From Glomus cerebriforme (lineage: Eukaryota > Glomeromycota > Glomeromycetes > Glomerales > Glomeraceae), in NCBI GenBank assembly GCA_003550305.1, contig QKYT01000154.1, forward strand, positions 42,653-106,652: 64,000 nucleotides of DNA. The letters run 5' to 3'. Position numbers and translations under genes: made by a program. How positions within the stretch are numbered: position 1 is the stretch's first letter; each line of letters opens with the position of its first letter. Below the pieces are notes generated by a model. It was not told the DNA's origin. It saw only the letters and a program-made list of their open reading frames with translations, and made no database searches. Positions 11,750-60,577 of the stretch are shown here, piece after piece.

Positions 11750-12795
11750 ACAAATCACTTTTTTTATGAATTAAGCATTAAATTATTTAAGTATAGTTTA
11801 TCTTATATGCCTCCTTTTTTTTATGACTTTTTTGAACAGTTATGTTTGTTGCATTGAACATGATAATTTTATTATTAACTTATTTACAAAATGTTTTAGA
11901 CGTTAAAGTTCAAATAAAATAACATTTTATTAAGCCATAATATAATAGTTATTTGATTTTAAATTTTTTTTGGGCATTAATATGTCTTCTCTTACTGTAC
12001 GCTAAGTACTTTCTAAATATATTTTGACATTTTATAATGTTATACAAACATCGTGATGTAAAGAAGTATCACAAAAAAGATGTAAGTCAACTTGAATGAA
12101 GATAATCAACAACCGATTAATGAATTTCTAAGTCTATCATAAATTCATTAGTAAAAATAAATATTCCCGTAAAATCATGTAATAAAAAAATTACTTTTCA
12201 TTTTTCAAAAAATTGATACAAGAATTACGAGAATCAAAAAATGTAATTTTGTCATTGTTCATGCGCCGGGTAAATTACAACAATTGTTGCGCAAATATTG
12301 TCCTATATAATGTTTTTTTTAATAATTAACCTGTCTTTTATATCATAAGTAAAGTTAATTATCAAGTTAAATTACATTAACTCTGAAATTACATAAACTT
12401 CTAATTAAAACTTATTAAAAAAAATCAATTTATAGCACGATTTATAATATATTATTATTTACGAAGTAGATCAGTAAAAGGCTAAAATTTGCCGATCATT
12501 TGTAGATTATTTCTAAATTTTATCAAATTTATCATTAATGTATTAAATTCGACCAAATTTTTTTTTGACTATTTAATTCTGACTTTTCATTATTATAACC
12601 AGAAATAGCAGTTTGCGGGGGACTTCGTCCCCTATAAAAATTTCAAGTACAGAGATCAATAAAGGTTGGATTCTATTATTTATTTTAAAATTAAAAAAAA
12701 AATATTTTTTGTATTTACTGCATGTATAAATAATTACTACATAATTATATAAAAAATATTACTCAAAAAGTTAATGTTAGTTAGATATAAAAATT
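11750..12795. other. Spacer, no gene seen
   Basis: Begins with the shared subfamily II 3' flank (to about 11960), then unique AT-rich sequence with stops in all frames. Confidence 0.55.
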
Positions 12796-28050: not shown

Positions 28051-29295
28051 TTAGTATTTAATATATTCACCATAAATGTTTGTTTGAGTACCGTTTATAA
28101 AACTATCATAAGCTGTATTAATTACACCCATCCAACAACTAGGTATTAATTCTCTAGACCAATTATTATGCCAATGGTAAGCAAAAGCACCCCTAAAGAA
28201 ATTATCAGCCTTCCTTAAATCCAAAGGAGAATAATCATTTATATTTTTAATATTAGGAAATTCTCCTGGAATAAAATTAGGATCCCAAACATCATCCATA
28301 CCATTAAGATTAGGACTTAGAACGTTCTTTTGACGACGATCATTCTTTAACCAAAGAGGATCAAATAATGGTACAGAATACATATAAAGTGCCGAATTAT
28401 ATATTGATTTTGTGGTAGGAGAATCTAAAGAAAGATTTGTATCAGCTAATAAATATTTCTTTATTTGAAACGGATGAAAATTCATTTTCTCTTTCATAGC
28501 TTGAGAAATAATTTTTCTACTTGTTGTTCCATTTGCATGTAATCTTAATACGGCAGTATTATATTCTGTTTTAAAACTCCATTTATATGAGAAATCTATT
28601 CCCGAATGATATAATGGTCGCATATCACGTAAGAAGAGAACGTCACCATCCATATACATTCCTCCATATCTATTCAAAACAACAAATCTCACCAAATCAC
28701 TAAATGCGACAGAACTATGACCAGACATGATCGCTTCCCAACCATTATATATAGGATCTGAATTTAATTGTTCTTCGGTATCCCATTTTTTAAATTCAAT
28801 ATTTTTTGGAGAGAATTTTTTATAAATAAATCCTGCAAAAGGGTTCATATCTATATCTGTATCAGAATTTTGTAACCAGACATATAATTTTGAACAAGCT
28901 AAAGGTTGAGTATAAAGAAAACTTTTCATTTGTAATGTTAACTTGTCGGTTATCATACCACGCCAAAATACATGAAATAACATTGGAGGTTCATTTTCGT
29001 TACATTCTGGAATTGGAGATGAAGGATTTATAATATATTCATCCTCTTTTGTATCAAGATATTCTAAACAATTTTCCACTAAATTAAATTTCATGTCACA
29101 ATATTTCATAACTTGGTCTGTATTAAGAATACCATTAGGTCTTTGTTGAGAAGGTACAACATCAGGTGCTTCCAGAACGTTCACTGGGGGAGAATCCGAA
29201 TAAATTGTGTATAATAAATCGAATAAAATAATAAGACATATTATAGTCAATAAACTTTTTTTGTTTAATATACTTGTTAATTTGTTTGAAACCAT
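28051..29295 (-). CDS. Type II membrane glycosyltransferase with DXD motif (GT32-like)
   Basis: 414-residue single-exon gene. Residues 15-32 (LLTIICLIILFDLLYTIY) form a single N-terminal signal anchor, so a Golgi/ER lumenal enzyme is expected. Residues 104-145 (MLFHVFWRGMIT, KLYVWLQNSD) and 199-223 (SDLVRFVVLNRYGGMYMDGD) match the sugar-binding-region glycosyltransferase fold; Asp216-Gly-Asp218 is the metal and nucleotide-sugar binding DXD motif. Near the C-terminus AYHWHNNWS (372-380) is the usual His/Trp signature of this class. This places it with OCH1-like and alpha-1,4-GalNAc/mannosyl transferases (Gly_transf_sug family); donor and acceptor cannot be told. It is transcribed divergently from the lipase gene at 30314. 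Length and motifs suggest it is intact. Confidence 0.85.
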   Translation of the reverse strand: MVSNKLTSILNKKSLLTIICLIILFDLLYTIYSDSPPVNVLEAPDVVPSQQRPNGILNTDQVMKYCDMKFNLVENCLEYLDTKEDEYIINPSSPIPECNENEPPMLFHVFWRGMITDKLTLQMKSFLYTQPLACSKLYVWLQNSDTDIDMNPFAGFIYKKFSPKNIEFKKWDTEEQLNSDPIYNGWEAIMSGHSSVAFSDLVRFVVLNRYGGMYMDGDVLFLRDMRPLYHSGIDFSYKWSFKTEYNTAVLRLHANGTTSRKIISQAMKEKMNFHPFQIKKYLLADTNLSLDSPTTKSIYNSALYMYSVPLFDPLWLKNDRRQKNVLSPNLNGMDDVWDPNFIPGEFPNIKNINDYSPLDLRKADNFFRGAFAYHWHNNWSRELIPSCWMGVINTAYDSFINGTQTNIYGEYIKY

Positions 29296-30313: not shown

Positions 30314-32371
30314 ATGGAAGTACCAATTATCGGAAGATTAAATTATAGAGATTATCAAGCATTAATTATTGCTATCGTGTTTTTATTTATTGAAAAATTC
30401 CTTCGTGTTATAACTTATTTACTACCAAGTTCAGGAGTGAGATACTTGAGGGATGAAAGTCAAAAGTATGTAGTTAAACTAACCCTTTTTTTTTTAAAAA
30501 AAAAGAAAGATCATTGATATTAATTTCTCTTGTTTTAATATAGATTATTTTCAATGTTATATAAGGATGAAAGAACTTTACCAGTAAAATTATTTCAACA
30601 TGCGGAAAATTTCCGAGAATTAGTTAATTATTGGGATTATCATGTCGAAGACCATATAGTAAAGACTAGAGACAATTATATATTAGGAGTTCAAAGGATC
30701 CCTCATGGGAAATATCCTTCTTCCGCTAAACCTAGTCCTATAAATTTCGCATTAAATCAAGTTCATCAAGTTGAAGAAGAACAAAACATAGAAACTATAT
30801 TTAAGAAGAATGGAATTTCATTATCAGCAATTCGAAAAAATCCAAATGATATAAAAAATAAATCATCTTCATCATCTTTTTTACAAGAATTTTCCGATGA
30901 ATCATCATCAAAAAAAAAGAAATATATTAAACCTGTTGTATTACTTTATCATGGTTTAATGACTTGTAGTGAACTTTGGGTTTGTAATGTTGAATATGAA
31001 AATAGATTGGCTTGTTTATTGGCTGATGCTGGGTAAATAACGATCGAGAACGAAAAAAAAACATATATTTTGGAACGTTAATTTAACGATTTTATTTTAT
31101 TTGTATTTAGGTATGATGTATGGTTTGGTAATATTAGAGGTAATAAATATTCAATGAAACATACTAAATTTGATCCAAGTGAAAGAAGATTTTGGGAATA
31201 TTCAATGGATGAAATGGCTATATATGATTTACCTGATACAATTGATGTAAGTATTATCAGATCAACCGTTCGATTTTAATTTAATTTCAACTAATTAAAC
31301 TAAATTAATTATATTAAATAGTATATATTAGATATAACAGGAGCACCATCATTATCATATATTGGATTTTCACAAGGAACAGCTCAATGCTTTGCTTCTT
31401 TATCAATTAATCCAAAATTGAACAAAAAAGTAAATTTATTTATTGCTCTTGCTCCAGCAACAAGTCCAAAAGGTAAATAAATGTTTTCAAAAAATTTATT
31501 TTATCAATTTTTTTAAATAAGATAATAATTTAAAATTTCTCGTTATATTTCTTTAGGTCTGAAAAATTCAGTTATTGACGCATTAATGAAATTATCACCA
31601 AATGTGATATATTTGTTTTTTGGACGTAAAGCTGTATTAACAATGGCATTGTTTTGGCAAAGAGTATTATCTCCACCTATTTTTACTAAAATTATCGATT
31701 TGGCTTTAAGAATTTTATTCGGTTGGGATCTTAAAAATATCAGTGAAGCTCAAAAAGCTATTGGTTATTATCATTTATATAGTTGTTCAAGTACAAAAAG
31801 TTTGGTCGTAAGTATGATTTATTTTTTTTTTTATTTTATAATTTTTATTTATTTTTTTTTTAAAAAAAAAAGAGGCGAAACTAATTCATTTTTCTTAAAT
31901 AGCACTGGTTTCAAATTATTAGATCAAGAAAATTTCAAATGTATGATGATTTACCACCTTATTCCTATACTTCAACTTCGTTAGGATACTCTTGTCAAAG
32001 ATTTCCCACTTTGCAAATTACTACCCCTACAGCAATATTTTATGGCGGTAGAGATAGTTTAGCTGATATGAATATGTTATTAAAACAAATTCCCGCTCCT
32101 GTTCTTATGAGAGAAGTTTTAGATTATGAACATTTAGGTATGGCATAAATGTTGTATTATTATTATTGTCGAAATTTATGATAATTCATTTAAATTTATT
32201 TATTTTTATTATTTAGATTTTCTTTGGGCTAGGGATGTTCATCAAAAAGTCTTTCCAGATATATTTAATTTATTGTTACGATATAATGTGCATGATAATT
32301 ATGATTTTATGGTTGATTATCAAAATAATGATGATGATATTATTGATCAAGAGGATTATTCTTATACTTAA
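30314..32371 (+). CDS. Membrane-anchored alpha/beta-hydrolase lipase (steryl ester / acid lipase type)
   Basis: Seven exons joined by GT-AG introns: 30314-30465, 30544-31032, 31111-31246, 31322-31472, 31557-31807, 31903-32137, 32217-32371. Every junction keeps the frame and gives 522 residues. Residues 16-37 are a membrane segment. Residues about 83-108 (YHVEDHIVKTRDNYILGVQRI) are the abhydro-lipase entry motif. HGLMTCSELWV (187-197) is the oxyanion region. The nucleophile elbow is GFSQG with Ser276. Asp444 (GGRDS) and His470 (YEHLDFLWA) complete the triad. A Ser/Lys-rich insert at about 127-177 precedes the core. The family (yeast Tgl1/Yeh1-like, animal acid lipases) hydrolyses steryl esters or triacylglycerols at lipid droplets or membranes; the exact substrate is not readable. 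All key residues are present, so it should be active. Confidence 0.88.
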
Positions 32372-42995: not shown

Positions 42996-44359
42996 TTATT
43001 TAGCGTTGGAATTATTATTCTTCATTTTATATTTTCTTTTCATTCTTTTATTTTTACGTTCTTGGTTTGGGTTTTCAAAAATATACGCGTATTCGACCTT
43101 TTCAGCTTTTTTTGGTCTATCTACTTCATCTAATAATCTACTATCATCAAAAATTATATCATTAAACCCTGAAGAAACCTTATTTACGCTAAGAATTTTT
43201 TCACATTCTGACTTATACCGAAATTTAGTTTTATTATTACTTTTCTGGAATAAATAATTAATTTATCAAAAATTGAATCGCTTCTTTATATAATAATAAT
43301 AATAATAATTTACCTTCCACTTATTATAACCTTGCTTAGTATTCTTCCACTTATATTCGCATTGTCGGGGAGAATATTTGTGGCCATTTTTGATTAGAAC
43401 ATCGGAAATATACTTCCAAAGTTTGCACTTAACATTACCATGATTTGTTGGCAATAGAGCAACAACTTCTTTACATTTTTCCAGACAGAAAAAAAAATTC
43501 TTAGTAGCTTCTTCACTCCATATGCATGGAATAGTAGGGGCAATAATAATGCTTGATCCTACCATAATCGGAATTTAGAAATAAATGTATTTTATATCAT
43601 GGCGAGAATTACGAATTTATAGTAATTTATACTTTTAATAAACAGCAAAGATTTATACTAGGATTACCCACCATTATTTTGATAGTCAGACTGACGAAAA
43701 GAAGGATTCCTCTCTCTTAAACGATCGATTGACCCGTCAATTGCGGCGGAAAGCAATTCAGATCCGCATTGCATCGAATATTGATTAATAATTTCGCGAG
43801 TAGCTTTTGTATGAGAAAATAGTAACGAAAGAAAAAGGTAAAATATCATTAATATTCTATCATATTTGTTTTAGTCTACGTTCTTGACATAGAAAATAAT
43901 AAAATAGTTAAGTTTCGCTAAAACTCTTGTTTATTTATCACGTTTCAGAAACCTGCGGGCTTTCGCGTCCAATTATTTCTGTAATTTTAACGCTCTGAAA
44001 GCGGTGATATATCAACTTTCAGAAACAACAATAAATGATTGAAAAATAATACCTTTGCCACTATCAACTAGCTGATGACTATTGTCTTGTTGATTTGAAA
44101 CAATATGCGTAGGACGTATCATCGGTAAAACATTAGTATGAGGGGACAAATAAGTTCGACTGTTAGTGATACAAATTCCTTCGCAAAATTCTTCATAAAT
44201 TCCTTCATGAAATTCATCGCAAATTCCTTCAAAAAATTCTTCATAAATTCCTTCATGAAATTCATTGCAAATTCCTTCATCAATTCCTTGATGAATCTCT
44301 TCAATGTTTTCATAAATTTCCCATTCAGGAATTCCTTCAAAAAATATATTTTGATCCAT
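42996..44359 (-). CDS. Trihelix (Myb/SANT-like) protein with octapeptide-repeat N-terminus
   Basis: Four exons on the minus strand: 44359-44053, 43803-43672, 43558-43314, 43244-42996. GT-AG junctions are in frame (phases 1, 1, 0) and give 310 residues. Exon 1 carries four acidic octapeptides of EGI(C/Y)xEF(H/F/C) form at residues 28-59. Exon 2 has EIINQYS and SIDRLRERN. Exon 3 is the trihelix domain: CIW (Trp160), KLW (Trp194), KYSPRQCEYKW (Trp217), the spaced tryptophans of Myb_DNA-bind_4. Exon 4 has FRYKSECEKIL and a C-terminal YIFENPN motif followed by a basic tail. A nuclear DNA-binding regulator is likely; target unknown. No two-cysteine domain is present. Confidence 0.8.
43930..44001 (-). 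promoter_or_regulatory. Conserved intron element (copy 1)
   Basis: Within intron 1 of the trihelix gene. On the plus strand it has TTTATCACGTTTCAGAAA and AATTTTAACGCTCTGAAA about 35 bases apart; TTTCAGA and TCTGAAA can pair. Equivalent blocks occur at 52628-52701 and 58393-58456. Confidence 0.5.
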
Positions 44360-47497: not shown

Positions 47498-47929
47498 CTA
47501 CTTAGAAGTAAAAATCTGGTAAAGTATCAGTCGAAGCCTGATCCCTCCCATTTAATAAAAATATTGTTATTATTCGACGACAAAAACGACAAAAATAGGG
47601 ATAGACAATTTCCTGGTTAATACACTAATAATGCTTTTATGGTATGGATACATCTAATTTATGTGGGGATGTAAATTTTTTCTGATGTATAAATAATTGG
47701 TAGCAATTATTTAACTGCGAAAAAATAATTTCCTTATTCGGAAACTTTTTAATAAAATCCAATCCAATCTATTTTATTGTTATATCATATTGTTTACCAG
47801 TATTGGAAAATATTCCCAACAAAAGTTCTATTTATCCATAATATTTTTAATATTTTTATTACTTTAATACGATAAATTTTGGAATTGTTTTAATTTTTGA
47901 AACGTAAAATACGAAAAAAAATGATTTCG

Positions 47930-48001
47930 ATTGGATTGGATTTCCAATTGGATAAATTGGATTGAATTGGATTGGATTGGATTGGATTGGATTGAATTGA
48001 T
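47930..48001. repeat. (GGATT)n repeat upstream of fusion gene 1
   Basis: Interrupted GGATT/GAATT pentamers, with an uninterrupted core GGATTGGATTGGATTGGATT. Each unit contains ATTGG, i.e. a reverse CCAAT box. The run ends 242 bases before the ATG at 48243. Confidence 0.8.
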
Positions 48002-48242: not shown

Positions 48243-49345
48243 ATGAGTTCAAATCCAATAGACATTTCGTCCAATTTTTACTCCCAAGATGAGTTCGAAT
48301 TTAACTATGGTTTAACTAATGATATTTTTAATAATCAACCCGAAGAATACTCATATTTTTATGAGCTATCCAACGAAATTTACCATATTACGTGCAAAGA
48401 AATAATTGACAGAACCTTGATTACTAGTAATGATTCCATTCAGTATGATAATGTATATAATTTTGATTACCAACAACTTGATACCAAGAGATTGTATCGT
48501 TTTGCTTGTAGAAAACTTTCTCCCACATTTATTTTTCAGCTTTTAAATAAATATATTTATGGGATACATGAGATGGGATCTACGACTGAACAACAAGAAG
48601 TGTTTTTAGTCGAACATCAAGAAATTCTTAAAGATCACATAATCAAAAAATTTGCTCATTATTTGGAACTAAAACAATTTTGTACGCAGGAACCTTTATT
48701 TGATTTGAGATTTATGGAAGATTATCAATATTATTATACTGCAGGCTCTAATGCGGGTACGCTTAATACTTTATTCTTCCTTTCCCTCTTAACTAATATA
48801 ATAAATCAATAAGCTCTATACTTTCTACACTATTCCCTACTTTCTTTTTTATTATAGTGGGATTAAATGGATCTTCTAACGAAAAAGAAAATGAAAACTC
48901 AGAGAAAACATCACTTCCATGTACTAAATGCGTATGGCATGAAAAACCCGTTAAATTATTGTTGTCTTTTTTGATAACACGCAAAGAAGAAGTCAATCAA
49001 CTTGCAACAAAGCGGGGTGGAGGTGGTAATATTAAAACAAAACTCTGGGATGATGCCGTGGTTATGTTATTCAGGAATGGCTATTATGAATATACTGCTA
49101 AACAATGTGCTACTAAATGGAAGAACATTAAGAAAGAATATAACGATAATAATATCCAAATTCGGTATAAATCAGAAGTTGAAGAGATCCTAGGTGGAAA
49201 TGGATTGAATTTAGAATCAAGGAGAATGGATGGTAATTCGCATTTTAATGACATGCCGATGTCCGCTAAACGAAAAATGTTAGATGAGGATAAATCAAAT
49301 AATAAGACGATTAAATTTATTCATTATGAAAATCCAAAAAATTAA
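48243..49345 (+). CDS. Fusion gene 1: two-cysteine domain plus trihelix domain
   Basis: Two exons, 48243-48756 and 48858-49345, joined by a 101-base GT-AG intron (phase 1), give 333 residues. Exon 1 holds the unknown domain at about 38-144: YHITCKEI with Cys51, LYRFACRKLSP with Cys89, FQLLNKYIYGIHEM and the HQEILKDHIIKKFAHYL helix. Exon 2 has an acidic linker, then the trihelix domain at about 196-268: CVW (Trp198), KLW (Trp235), YTAKQCATKWKN (Trp259). RYKSEVEEILG and a terminal IHYENPKN follow. Without splicing, exon 1 would run to a stop at 48812. The spliced form is favoured because the intron sits where all relatives have one and the frame is kept. Presumed nuclear regulator. There is no two-cysteine plus trihelix family I can name. 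Confidence 0.8.
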
Positions 49346-51559: not shown

Positions 51560-52229
51560 TTAGGATGTGCAAATGGTACTGTTGTAGCCCAAACGTAACC
51601 ATGTCCCGAATCCGACTTGGGATATCCCAAATCAAACTTGGGACAATCCTATGTCCGAAAATTAACCATATCCCAAACAAAACTAGTAAATTTTAAATGT
51701 TTAAGACGTCTCAAACTACCATTTAAGACTGGGTTAGTTTGGGACATGGTCAAGTTTCGGATATAAGGTTTTCCCAAGTTTGATTTGGGACATGGTAGTG
51801 TTTGGGCTACAACAGTACGATAAATCTATTAAATTGTTTTTTTTTTATTTGGAAGAACGTAAAGATGATATCAATAAACTGCCATCAAAGCGTGGTAATT
51901 TTAAATCCAAACTCTGGAAATATATCTCTGTTGTGCTACTCAAACATGGCTACAGTTATTCTCCAAAACAATGTGAACACAAGTGGAAGAATATCAAGCA
52001 AAAATATAAGGTAAAGTTATTCTTAAAAAAAACCAAAAGAAACTATCTTAATTTTTGATGTTTAATATGTTTAATATAGGAAAACCCCGGATTTCGGTTT
52101 AAGACAGAATATGAAAGAGTTACCGGTACAAATAGGACTTCAAATGATAGTTCAGATTTTAATGAGTTTAATATATCTTCTAATGTTGGATTTGAATATA
52201 GGTTTGTTTTTGAAAATCCAAATACATAA
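51560..52229 (+). pseudogene. Broken trihelix gene: trihelix and C-terminal exons
   Basis: Before the MITE, 51565-51578 encodes MCKW and the start of the next codon. After it the trihelix domain continues (DKSIKLFFFYLEERKDDINK, KLWKYISVVLLKHG, YSPKQCEHKWKN) to a donor at 52010/52011. The last exon 52080-52229 has FRFKTEYERVTG and ends VFENPNT with TAA. The domain matches the gene at 42996 best. The MITE at 51579-51815 lies right after the first conserved tryptophan codon and shifts the frame. No upstream exon is on this strand, so the gene is not functional as it stands. Confidence 0.75.
51579..51815. mobile_element. MITE inserted in the trihelix exon
   Basis: CTGTTGTAGCCCAAAC at the left and GTTTGGGCTACAACAG at the right are perfect inverted ends, bordered by TA on both sides (51577-51578, 51816-51817), as in Tc1/mariner elements. 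237 bases, non-coding, with repeated CATGTCCC/GGGACATG motifs inside. Confidence 0.85.
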
Positions 52230-54325: not shown

Positions 54326-54394
54326 ATTGGATTATTGATTGTGTATTGGATTGGATTGGATTGATTTGAGATTAGAATTGGATTAATTGGATTA
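54326..54394. repeat. (GGATT)n repeat upstream of fusion gene 2
   Basis: GATTGGATTATTGATTG, then TATTGGATTGGATTGGATTG and further spaced ATTGG units, ending about 145 bases before the ATG at 54540. Same motif as at 47930. Confidence 0.75.
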
Positions 54395-54539: not shown

Positions 54540-55820
54540 ATGACAGAATATATTTCTAATGAGTTAGCCAGTAATGCTAGCATAAACCAGATTATATTCT
54601 TCTATACCCAGAATGATATAACTTACCTTATTCAGTGTGAAGAATCCAGTCCTGGCTCAATTACAGATTATAGTTTTAGTAACACTCTTATATTTACTCA
54701 TGAACAGCTCAATATAAATAAAACATATCGTCTAGTTTGCAAAAAGCTTTCAGTTACATTTATTTATCAAATTTTAAATAACATTTTCTTTAATATTGAT
54801 TTTAACCTAATTGAGCAACAGCAGCGAGAATTTTCTATAAAAGATCAAGAAAATCTTAAAACTCACTTAAAAAAGGATTTAATCTATTATTTAGAATTAA
54901 ATCGCAGACCAAATGATTTTCTATATCATTGCTTTCTTAAAAAATATTATGATTATGAAAGTATGATGATTTCTCAACAAAATAGCCTACAGGACGATAG
55001 TTACAGACAAGGTATAATTTTTCTCAAACTTGGTATGTTGTTGTGAGCACAAATTAAATGTGACTCATATTTATCTTTCTTTCCACTAGAATTTACAAAT
55101 GATCAATTCGTTTCTTTACCATCACATGAACAACCTGATGGATTTTCTGGAGTTGAAGGAACAGATGAAAAAATAGAAGTAATTGAAGCAGTATTTGATA
55201 AGTTATTGCAAATAAGTTCGTCTTTTCAACAATTTCATCAAAATGAAGGTAGGATATATCTTATTTCGTCAATTTTCTCACGTTGTGGTGAACTTTAATT
55301 GTTATGTTCGCAAGTGTTTAAAGCATGATTTGGTCATACAAATGAATGCCGTGCGGTTACTAAATATTAATATTACTTTCTATTAGTTACTTCATCAGAA
55401 TTGACCATTAATCCTGAACCTTCTAGTAATGATATTGAAGGTAAAATATTAATGGAGGAAGCAAATCCACCAAGCGAAGGAGTTGAATCTTCTAATGAGA
55501 GTGAAAGCTCAACAGAAAGAACAAGATCATCTCCATGTGATTGGAGTGAGGAAGGAGCAGTCGAATGTCTATTGTCATATTTGAAAGAAAATAAGGACTT
55601 GGCAAGAAAGCGCGGTGGTATTAATTGGGAGCAAGCCTCTACTAGGCTACGAGAACATAACTTCGACTTTTCTGCCAAACAATGTTCGACTAAATGGAAA
55701 AATATTAAACGAGAAAGTAAGAAAAATATGATGTATAAATCGCAAGTTGAAGAAATACTTGGTAAAAACGATAAAAAGAAGAAAAAAATAACTAAGTATT
55801 TACTTAATAAATACAAATAA
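54540..55820 (+). CDS. Fusion gene 2: two-cysteine domain plus trihelix domain
   Basis: Three exons, 54540-55011, 55090-55248 and 55387-55820, with GT-AG phase 1 introns, give 354 residues. Exon 1 carries the unknown domain at about 18-120: ITYLIQCEESSPGSITDY with Cys33, TYRLVCKKLSVTFIYQILNN with Cys67, and the ENLKTHLKKDLIYYLEL helix. Exon 2 (53 codons, acidic, ending SSSFQQFHQNE) has no counterpart in fusion gene 1. Exon 3 has a Ser/Glu-rich linker, then the trihelix domain at about 260-322: CDW (Trp263), INW (Trp291), FSAKQCSTKWKN (Trp314). MYKSQVEEILG follows. The C-terminus ends in a Lys-rich tail and lacks the ENP motif of its relatives. The two halves of the first domain look most alike in this copy. 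Confidence 0.78.
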
Positions 55821-57769: not shown

Positions 57770-58812
57770 TTATAGCTTACTTATTCTCTTGTTCCCATAA
57801 TCTTTTGGATTTTCCATAATAAATATACATTCATTATTATCTTCATCTAACAAATTATGACTAGATATATCAGAAGACATGTTAAATTCCTCATCACCAT
57901 TTGACTTCTCATTAAGAATTTCTTTAACTTTAGAATAATATTTTCTATCCCTTTTAATATTTTTCCATTTAATCCAACATTGTTTCGAATCATAATTGTA
58001 GCCATATTTATGTAGCAGGTTAGCAGCATCCTCCCAGAGTTTTTCTTTAATGCCGCTAGTACGACTTTTTGCCAGTTGTTTAACTTCATTTTTATGTTTC
58101 TTCAAATAGGAAAATAAGTGTTTGACAGCTTTCGGTTTCCAATTACATGGTGATTTTCTGGTTGATCCTCCAGTTCTACCCCGATTATCATATGGGGGCG
58201 GTGGAGTTGTTTCGTGTTCTTCGTCAGAAGGTTCAAAAGGTTCAGTAGCAACTTTTGATCCTACTATAATTAAAGAAATAAAATTGCATTGATAGACATA
58301 TTATAAGTTTTCAAGACAATATACTGTATATCGTGATGGATACATATCAATTATTTGTTGTGTTCATCGCGGTATAGTTTTGCTTGTAGCTTTGTTTTAT
58401 TTATCGCGTTTTAGGAGCGATTACAAATGAATTCTATAATTTTTGCCGTTCTGAAAACGACGATAATATTTATACTAATTTATAAAAATGGAAATTAAAA
58501 TAAGAGAAATATTAGTTTATTATAATTACCTTGGTGATATTCATTTTCTTCAAAAACTTGAATATTTTGTTGAGGAATAGAAGCATACGGAATGTTTAAT
58601 ATAGGTAGAGGTAGTTCTTCAAAATCATAAAACGCTGGGTATTCATTAGGACATGGTTGCATGGATTGCATGCTAATATGAGAATATTCATATAATTGAG
58701 TGAATTGAGGATAACTGGTGACGGGTAAATAGGGGACACTTTGATTTGATTGAATGTAAACAATACCATTAAATAATGGTTGAGGGCTAGCAAAATAATA
58801 ATTTCCTGCCAT
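57770..58812 (-). CDS. Trihelix protein with Pro/Tyr/Gln-rich N-terminal exon
   Basis: Two exons on the minus strand, 58812-58530 and 58263-57770, joined by a GT-AG phase 1 intron, give 258 residues. Exon 1 (MAGNYYFASPQPLFNG..., with PYLPVTSYPQFTQLYEYSH) is low-complexity, rich in Pro, Tyr, Gln and Ser, and could act as an activation-type region. Exon 2 opens VGSKVATEPFEPSDEE, then has PPPPYDNRGRTGGSTRK and the trihelix domain at about 134-203: CNW (Trp136), KLW (Trp171), YDSKQCWIKWKN (Trp194). YYSKVKEILNE and a C-terminal IFIMENPKDYGNK motif follow. No two-cysteine domain. Presumed nuclear DNA-binding regulator. Confidence 0.8.
58393..58456 (-). promoter_or_regulatory. Conserved intron element (copy 3)
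   Basis: Inside the intron of the preceding gene: TTTTATTTATCGCGTTTTAG and AATTTTTGCCGTTCTGAAAA on the plus strand, matching 43930-44001 and 52628-52701. Confidence 0.5.
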
Positions 58813-60037
58813 TATCAGTTAAGTAAGTATGCTAATATTCCTTTCCTATTGTAGATTCAAATGATTTTTTTAAAAAATTGAGATTAGGATGATGTTAATT
58901 TTCCGAAAAAAAATTATTAAATTTATTCGACGATTTACAAGAAAAGGAGTAGATAATTGATATTTTGATTTCTGTTATCATAAAACCTTTGTGTAATATA
59001 GTAATAGTAGTAAATGATATAAAAGGATTATCCAATCCAACCTTAAATCGGTATGATGAATTACAATTTAAAGTGATTTTCAGAAAGTTCTATAACAGAT
59101 TATCCATAAAAAATTCTAAATTGCGTATCAGCCAATTGGAAAAATTGGACCATATTTAATAATAATGATATTAAGATATTAAATAATCCATAAATTTATA
59201 AATTTAATAAAAATGTATGTATAAAAATTGTCTGTCAGTTTAATCATGAGGTTAAAAATTATGTATTATTTTATTCTATTTAATAAAATAGAAAATCTAA
59301 TCCAATCTAAATAAATTAATTAATCCACCTGCATTATTGAAATAAAATAATCTGCTATTACTACTATATTCGTGTAACTTTCGGATAAACAAGTTGTATT
59401 GTTTTCAACAGATAAAATTAGTAAGATCTTCTGCATTTGGATTGGATTGAGTCAACCCATTTTTGGATTTTCAATCCAATCCAATCCAATCCGTTATTTA
59501 TAGTTATTTTATACGTTTTTTATGTTTCATCTTTCATCATTTGATTGACCATTTGAGATCAACCTGATATTAGACAAGAAGCTTTTTTTAAATTACGTTT
59601 AAAAATAATAACATTCTCTAGCTTCTCGCAATATTCCTGTATTTATTTTAGAAATGTGAGGTTGGAAATGGCATTAAAGGTTACAGTAATCTAAAAACTG
59701 AAATGATCTACTTGTGTTCATTTTATCAAATTGTACTCCCATTTAAACAGTCTGCTGATCATTATTTGATGCATTTATTATATAAACTCAACAGGTTACT
59801 CAAAAAAAAAACGGAATGTTCCTACTTTTTTCCTCAAATTTTTAAAGAAAAAAGCTACAACCATTATAACCATCACGACCATTATAATTATTATATTTAT
59901 TGTCCAAAATTCTATATTATAATTAATTGCTACTGAAGCAAGAAAAAAAAGTAAGTTTTATTAAAGCCTTGTTTTTCGATTTCACAAAATTTCCTAAATC
60001 CGACCTTTTCTCATCACATAAAACTTTAGATCTAGAT
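58813..60037. other. Divergent spacer between trihelix gene and two-cysteine gene
   Basis: No gene seen apart from the repeat at 59437. It should contain promoters for both flanking genes. Confidence 0.5.
59437..59492. repeat. (GGATT)n / (AATCC)n inverted pair
   Basis: TTTGGATTGGATTGAG followed about 20 bases later by TCAATCCAATCCAATCCAAT, so the pentamer occurs in both orientations and can form a hairpin. It lies 625 bases upstream of the minus-strand trihelix gene and about 550 bases upstream of the gene at 60038. Confidence 0.75.
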
Positions 60038-60577
60038 ATGAATTATTCAAATGAACAAGTTTATATAAATGGTCCAGATTGTGCAGATTTTTCTTGTTCA
60101 AACGACTTTCACGTGACTTCTCAAGTAGACAGTTTGCAAACGCAATCAACGCAATCTGCGCTGAACTATCAGCCACCTCAACAAACATTTCAAACTATAC
60201 TTGCACCGACCAATCTTGTTCATCCTAATGTCTTTTTTTATCGGCCACCAAATGACTCTTTCCATTATTACATAAATTGTAAAGAAATCTCTTACGACAC
60301 TGTTATATATTTATTAAATAATTTAGAAGAACGTAATAATCGATCAGATGGACATGAATATATTTTTTACTACCGACAATATGGTGGCAGAGTTTATGAG
60401 ATATCGTGCGAAATTGTTTCTCCCTTTTTGATTGATAATTGTTTGAATAAAAATTTTCTTGGAATTGAACTTCAACAGAATGCGGCACAAGAGCACTGCT
60501 TATCATTTACTTTTAGTCAAAAGGAAAATCTTAAATATCATTTAAAACAATATTTAAGTCAATACTTATTAGGATAA
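60038..60577 (+). CDS. Two-cysteine domain protein, subfamily I-like member
   Basis: Complete 179-residue single-exon gene starting at the first ATG of the open frame (60038); upstream codons lack an ATG and are not conserved. Residues 1-22 (MNYSNEQVYINGPDCADFSC) are unique. From SNDFHVTSQV onward it follows subfamily I (NYQPPQQTFQTILAPTNLVH). The domain has Cys81 (NCKEISYD) and Cys124 (SCEIVSP), and one extra residue in EHCLSF. Its upstream region does not match the subfamily I promoter region, so it was moved with a new 5' end. Function unknown. Confidence 0.82.
   Translation: MNYSNEQVYINGPDCADFSCSNDFHVTSQVDSLQTQSTQSALNYQPPQQTFQTILAPTNLVHPNVFFYRPPNDSFHYYINCKEISYDTVIYLLNNLEERNNRSDGHEYIFYYRQYGGRVYEISCEIVSPFLIDNCLNKNFLGIELQQNAAQEHCLSFTFSQKENLKYHLKQYLSQYLLG

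Follow-up and report, generated by a model that had tools for sequence, protein, structure and literature searches.

Arbuscular mycorrhizal fungi have many orphan protein families whose function is unexplained. PIF/Harbinger transposons are expected to have inverted ends with 3-bp A/T flanks, and host-transposase fusion genes arise by splicing. PIF/Harbinger elements are described as having a second gene, whose product contains a Myb-like domain of the SANT/trihelix or MADF type (PMC9710019), and as requiring ORF1 for DNA binding (PMC9921582). Two kinds of gene are already known from the literature, namely Harbinger DNA-binding proteins that have been domesticated and host-transposase fusions (PMC9710019, PMC8616336, PMC8700633). 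In the former, which include NAIF1 with HARB1 in vertebrates and the MADF co-domestications of insects, a Harbinger DNA-binding protein serves as a host gene (PMC8616336, PMC9710019); in the latter, a host exon is joined to an exon of a DNA transposon (PMC8700633).

We analysed a 64,000-nt stretch of Glomus cerebriforme DNA (the window; positions 42653-106652 of contig QKYT01000154.1, here C252), which contains fusion gene 1. The NAIF1/HARB1 and insect MADF cases often involve a co-domesticated transposase, whereas here none was found on the contig and the protein is fused to a host-family domain. Unlike in the host-transposase fusions, the transposon-derived partner would be a DNA-binding accessory protein, and the gene belongs to an arbuscular mycorrhizal species. 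The closest likeness is to the ORF1 of a PIF/Harbinger group that we call H1, which supplies the nearest trihelix relatives beyond C252, kinship at the DNA level, a matching frame start and end repeats that recur upstream of the gene; the fusion locus differs by having neither transposase nor H1-type terminal repeats and by its extra N-terminal domain. Our preferred reading, to which we assign a probability of roughly 0.6, is that an orphan-domain exon was spliced onto a domesticated Harbinger DNA-binding protein and that the product acts as a DNA-binding regulator. If true, this would mean that in a fungus, too, a DNA-binding protein was assembled through the splicing of a host exon and an exon of a DNA transposon; our literature searches brought up no fungal fusion of a Harbinger ORF1 with an orphan domain.

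Judged from its sequence, fusion gene 1 is real: its two exons join an orphan two-cysteine domain to a trihelix, with the following parts.

48243-48756, forward strand: exon 1, orphan two-cysteine domain and C-terminal extension
48348-48671, forward strand: orphan two-cysteine domain within exon 1 (about residues 36-143)
48757-48857, forward strand: intron of 101 nt, phase 1, GT..AG (GTACGC...TTATTATAG)
48858-49345, forward strand: exon 2, trihelix (Pfam match 48929-49159) and C-terminal tail

The original prediction held that splicing at 48756/48858 keeps the frame and joins a domain of the array family to a Myb_DNA-bind_4 trihelix, and our calculations agree on each point. Removal of 48757-48857 preserves the frame and gives a 333-aa protein; the unspliced reading meets a stop at 48812 after 189 aa. 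The array HMM matches exon 1 (i-E 3e-10), and its domain matches array members elsewhere in the genome with E-values down to 2e-16. Pfam places PF13837 (Myb_DNA-bind_4) on residues 196-272 (E 1.1e-7; score 32.5 bits, curated cut-off 27) and gives no match on the N-terminal part, while exon 2 ends in a lysine/arginine-containing tail (KRKMLDE). A trihelix consists of three helices with a conserved Trp in each. Trp 198, 235 and 259 are kept in all 10 fusion-type rows, and an AlphaFold2 model of a R. clarus fusion places the helices at 189-201/203-211, 219-233 and 242-257. Among solved structures, a profile of seven fusion proteins matched the plant trihelix factor GT-1 (2EBI, 2JMW) over helices 2-3 with an E-value of 5e-4; the type of DNA-binding domain is the same, but the similarity is remote and both the partner domain and the organism differ. 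The trihelix of fusion gene 1 probably binds DNA, and may do so in a sequence-specific manner.

Five trihelix copies are grouped within 16 kb of the orphan-domain array: fusion gene 1, a lone middle trihelix, a second fusion gene and two minus-strand copies that have other 5′ exons.

54540-55820, forward strand: fusion gene 2 (C1645_822147), exons 54540-55011, 55090-55248 and 55387-55820
51792-52058, forward strand: lone trihelix copy in the middle, interrupted by a foldback element from which its start is read
57770-58812, reverse strand: trihelix gene without the orphan domain, exons 58812-58530 and 58263-57770, 258-aa model
43266-43574, reverse strand: fifth trihelix copy, an open frame with a probable first exon at 44359-44012

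The foldback (MITE-like) element, at 51573-51821 within the exon of the middle copy, has arms that are about 84% complementary and ends GTACTGTTGTAGCCCAAAC at 51576-51594 (forward) and 51800-51818 (reverse). The probable first exon at 44012-44359 (reverse) contains internal repeats of the FHEGIYEEF type. When the 37 contigs with orphan-domain matches were compared with the 50 contigs with trihelix matches, only C252 and C800 were in common, and on C800 the two domains lie 36 kb apart. Thus, two fusions were found in the genome, both on C252.

The orphan domain itself is abundant. A composite query of array domains gave 104 matches at E<=0.001 in the 112.5-Mb genome, which is a lower bound. The fusion gene 1 domain matches that of fusion gene 2 at an E-value of 2.9e-11, and its best unfused relatives lie on contig C2. 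Cys51 and Cys89 are each present in 48 of 50 domain rows; from the domain tree, likewise of 50 rows, four candidate rows were left out as they gave no domain call. The AlphaFold2 model of an array member has strands at 76-79, 87-95, 118-124 and 131-139 and helices at 97-107, 141-153 and 172-184, with block pLDDT values of 78-93 over these elements and a low-confidence first third. The R. clarus fusion model has a similar sheet domain, followed by a low-confidence stretch (169-182) and then the trihelix. Comparison of the orphan domain with solved structures gave no convincing fold match. A word-limited search returned 78 relatives of an array protein, and those named to species come from Glomus cerebriforme, R. 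irregularis, R. clarus and R. diaphanus.

Both domains also stand within one predicted protein in other genomes. The spliced fusion gene 1 protein was aligned by five annotated proteins, three from R. clarus and two from R. irregularis, over 85-98% of its length and with 46-58% identity, and all five carry PF13837. A profile search returned the G. cerebriforme protein C1645_822147 (P0085, 354 aa), which is letter for letter our three-exon model of fusion gene 2, whose last exon matches PF13837 at an E-value of 5.2e-8. In the metagenome proteins P0086 and P0087, a gene is split at the same junction as in fusion gene 1; the exon 1 part continues with ...GSN-T-G-M-L, as would be expected if a donor in that position were left unspliced, with codons inferred from the protein. 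It is highly improbable, in view of the two-domain proteins of two other species, of fusion gene 2 and of the junction kept in the metagenome relative, that fusion gene 1 is an artefact of two adjacent genes, one for an array-type protein of 189 aa with its end at 48812 and the other for a trihelix. What speaks for such a pair is that read-through exon 1 has its own stop and the length of an array protein, and that no G. cerebriforme annotation of fusion gene 1 was among the matches of the similarity and profile searches. The fusion had also been proposed as the first functional hint for the small proteins, a priority that falls away: public databases already list fusion-type proteins, either as hypothetical or as Myb/SANT-like, and it is under Myb/SANT-like names that fusion gene 2 and the Rhizophagus relatives appear.

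The architecture occurs with intact frames in three species of Glomeraceae (G. cerebriforme, R. clarus and R. irregularis). The 50-row domain tree joins the domain of fusion gene 1 to those of the Rhizophagus fusions with support of 99/93, and the grouping of fusion gene 1 with fusion gene 2 is weak (76/52). The R. clarus fusion gene RclHR1_05690007 is numbered beside the array genes 05690002 and 05690006, and the protein of the latter (P0067) groups with the window's array gene 33988 at 100/99. From this numbering and grouping the fusion locus seems old, and the R. clarus gene numbers suggest that a single fusion locus may be shared across species.

We found that the fusion trihelix is most likely derived from a transposon. 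Its closest relatives beyond C252, on contigs C91, C583, C631 and C449, form the one group H1; of these, C583 and C631 have the transposase. In the three elements viewed, on C631, C449 and C459, the ends are inverted (GGGTGC.TTCAC...) and the 3-bp A/T flanks match, although one end base differs on C631. On C449 a transposase piece lies 3-4 kb from the trihelix, outside that element's end, and the stretch downstream of the C91 trihelix contained no transposase. Beside the H1 element on C583 lies a self-inverted, palindromic stretch of 1.24 kb (1194-2437; L023), which shares about 85% identity with its reverse complement. Genome-wide, the Harbinger-type transposase domain PF13359 (DDE_Tnp_4) has 33 matches and lies within 5 kb of 6 of the 42 PF13837 matches and 5 of the 22 matches to the fusion gene 1 trihelix. 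Eleven distinct trihelix copies are at most 3 kb from a PF13359 transposase, all 11 in the opposite orientation, and only 0.27% of the genome is as near to a PF13359 match as these copies. Most trihelix matches are nevertheless unlinked to a transposase, since 31 of the 42 PF13837 matches lie off C252 and have no PF13359 nearby.

On C252 itself, PF13359 had no match at E 0.001, and no H1 end was found in the window with up to three mismatches in a search limited to H1-type ends. The sole transposase piece that tblastn located in the window is 35 aa long (12270-12371; 57% identity to an element on C1066, E 2e-4). A 54-row tree places the fusion trihelices with two Harbinger groups, H1 and a further one named H2, with support of 93/92; the same grouping has 80/91 in a 49-row tree with five rows left out, where the fusion and other C252 trihelices are not all kept together. 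Both trees are unrooted and weakly resolved, and give neither the inner order nor the direction of descent.

In the reverse direction, which the trees do not discriminate from the preferred one, Harbinger picked up or shares the domain of an old cellular trihelix gene, fused or not, and the fusion owes the transposon nothing. The C252 trihelix genes are intact and the H1 copies decayed, as this alternative would have it. We nevertheless consider it rather unlikely: plant and animal Harbinger elements are described with such a gene (PMC9710019, PMC8616336), the genome contains three separate Harbinger-linked trihelix groups, and repeats resembling transposon ends stand in the promoters of the fusion genes.

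The joint between the exons points to an ORF1 origin for exon 2. At the DNA level, fusion gene 1 (48784-49137) is 65% identical over 365 bp to the H1 copy on C91 (E 4e-32). The H1 frame start aligns with the splice acceptor of fusion gene 1, and downstream of it the frames agree (...PSNEKE in H1, ...SSNEKE in the fusion). An ATG is present at the aligned start in two of the five H1 copies (C91 and C459) and absent from the other three, and the H1 leaders on C449 and C459 contain a possible donor and a poly-T/CAG acceptor ahead of the ORF1 start. Exon 2 is thus likely an old ORF1 whose start region was turned into an acceptor, a reading that is likely rather than proven because the alignment of fusion gene 1 with H1 is loose upstream of the joint.

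The pentamer repeats upstream of the trihelix genes provide a second apparent link to Harbinger and a candidate binding site. The ends of H1 elements bear blocks of TTGGATTGGATTGG, and comparable blocks were found at three places in the window.

47926-47995, forward strand: (TTGGA)n block of fusion gene 1, 248-317 bp upstream of its ATG with one mismatch allowed, resembling H1 Harbinger ends
54346-54364, forward strand: (TTGGA)n block of fusion gene 2, 176-194 bp upstream of its ATG
59437-59489, no strand assigned: (TTGGA)n hairpin, 625 bp upstream of the minus-strand trihelix gene's ATG and 549 bp ahead of the array gene at 60038

The 17-mer TTGGATTGGATTGGATT has 51 matches at 25 places in 112.5 Mb, compared with none for a reversed-pattern control. 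H1 ends account for 16 of the 25 places, and three more are on C252, upstream of three of the five cluster trihelix copies including both fusions; no block was found upstream of the 43-44 kb copy or the interrupted middle copy. The remaining six places are C459:72930, C567 and four that were read, among which C343 shows paired H1-like ends, C728 a single one, and C222 and C265 none. In the 2 kb read at the dense (TTGGA)n block of C222 (211500-211546; L073), neither an H1 end nor a trihelix was present, and the block is possibly a target site or an unrelated repeat. A rough binomial figure for the placement of the repeats is 1.5e-11, calculated with windows that were chosen after the sites had been seen. 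When H1 leaders were used as queries, the three C252 repeat places scored top in the window for three of the four leaders; for the fourth, a place at 26.8 kb tied with the third gene's site, followed by fusion gene 2 in a tie with 38.0 kb.

The similarity between the C252 repeat places and the H1 leaders reaches past the pentamers, and the 17-mer is rare and mostly found at H1 ends, yet three trihelix genes, the two fusions among them, have it upstream. Both observations argue against the blocks being later small H1-type insertions, or mere pentamer repeats, that have no bearing on how the fusion arose or is regulated. This alternative is unlikely but deserves some weight, as the blocks are pentamer repeats without an H1 end and two or more of the 25 places lie away from recognisable H1 elements.

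Because the repeats stand upstream of the orphan-domain exon, this exon sits between Harbinger-like repeats and the ORF1 exon. The arrangement would be explained if an element had captured the exon, or if the exon had been taken up later by an element already domesticated. It does not agree with a bare downstream insertion. The same arrangement, with repeats like H1 ends ahead of the orphan-domain exon and the exon placed between a transposon-like promoter and an ORF1 exon, is also what would be seen if a Harbinger element had captured the exon and the present genes were remnants of a chimeric element rather than host genes. We regard such an origin as very unlikely: no further copy with both domains occurs in the genome, a search of 160 kb around trihelix and Harbinger sequences did not return the orphan domain, and the frames are intact in three species, in R. 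clarus apparently beside array genes as well.

According to the preferred reading of a domesticated ORF1, an orphan-domain exon would have come to stand ahead of a Harbinger ORF1, a Myb/trihelix DNA-binding protein, and would have been spliced to it at the former start codon. The transposase and terminal repeats would then have been lost from the locus, while the promoter-side repeats were retained. The fusion protein may recognise (TTGGA)n sites in its own and sister promoters, and possibly in H1 copies, and would probably regulate its own gene; the orphan domain would be an interaction or effector part that may pair with the small single-domain proteins. Points that count against this reading are the missing C252 transposase and H1 ends, the position of the repeats ahead of exon 1, the two copies without a block, the result with the fourth H1 leader, the loose alignment upstream of the joint, the weakly resolved trees, the many trihelix matches unlinked to a transposase and the missing G. 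cerebriforme annotation of fusion gene 1. A more far-reaching version, which we consider doubtful and quite unlikely, makes the domesticated ORF1 the DNA-reading subunit of a system specific to arbuscular mycorrhizal fungi, where the orphan domain recruits, or is titrated by, the ~100 array proteins, the transposon-end repeats are autoregulatory sites and the protein still acts on its Harbinger relatives.

Fusion gene 1 gives one orphan family a testable DNA link, with TTGGATTGGATTGGATT as candidate site and Harbinger ORF1 as candidate origin, and its relatives exist in the model species R. irregularis. The link is direct for two genes of the window and suggests that the roughly 100 small array proteins may be partners of a DNA-binding protein. 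The original prediction had taken the fusion to tie the orphan family to transcription. It is a real hint towards DNA, but a trihelix accompanies just two of the domain matches, which number at least 104, and since that trihelix is most likely transposon-derived, the fusion need not reveal the role of the small-protein family. Some array-family proteins contain two copies of the orphan domain per open frame (L024, L025 and L028, on contigs C622 and C756). Located among the array members of the window are also ordinary genes: a glycosyltransferase with a DXD-type sugar-binding region (28051-29295, reverse strand) and a lipase N-terminal region (30554-31036, forward strand).
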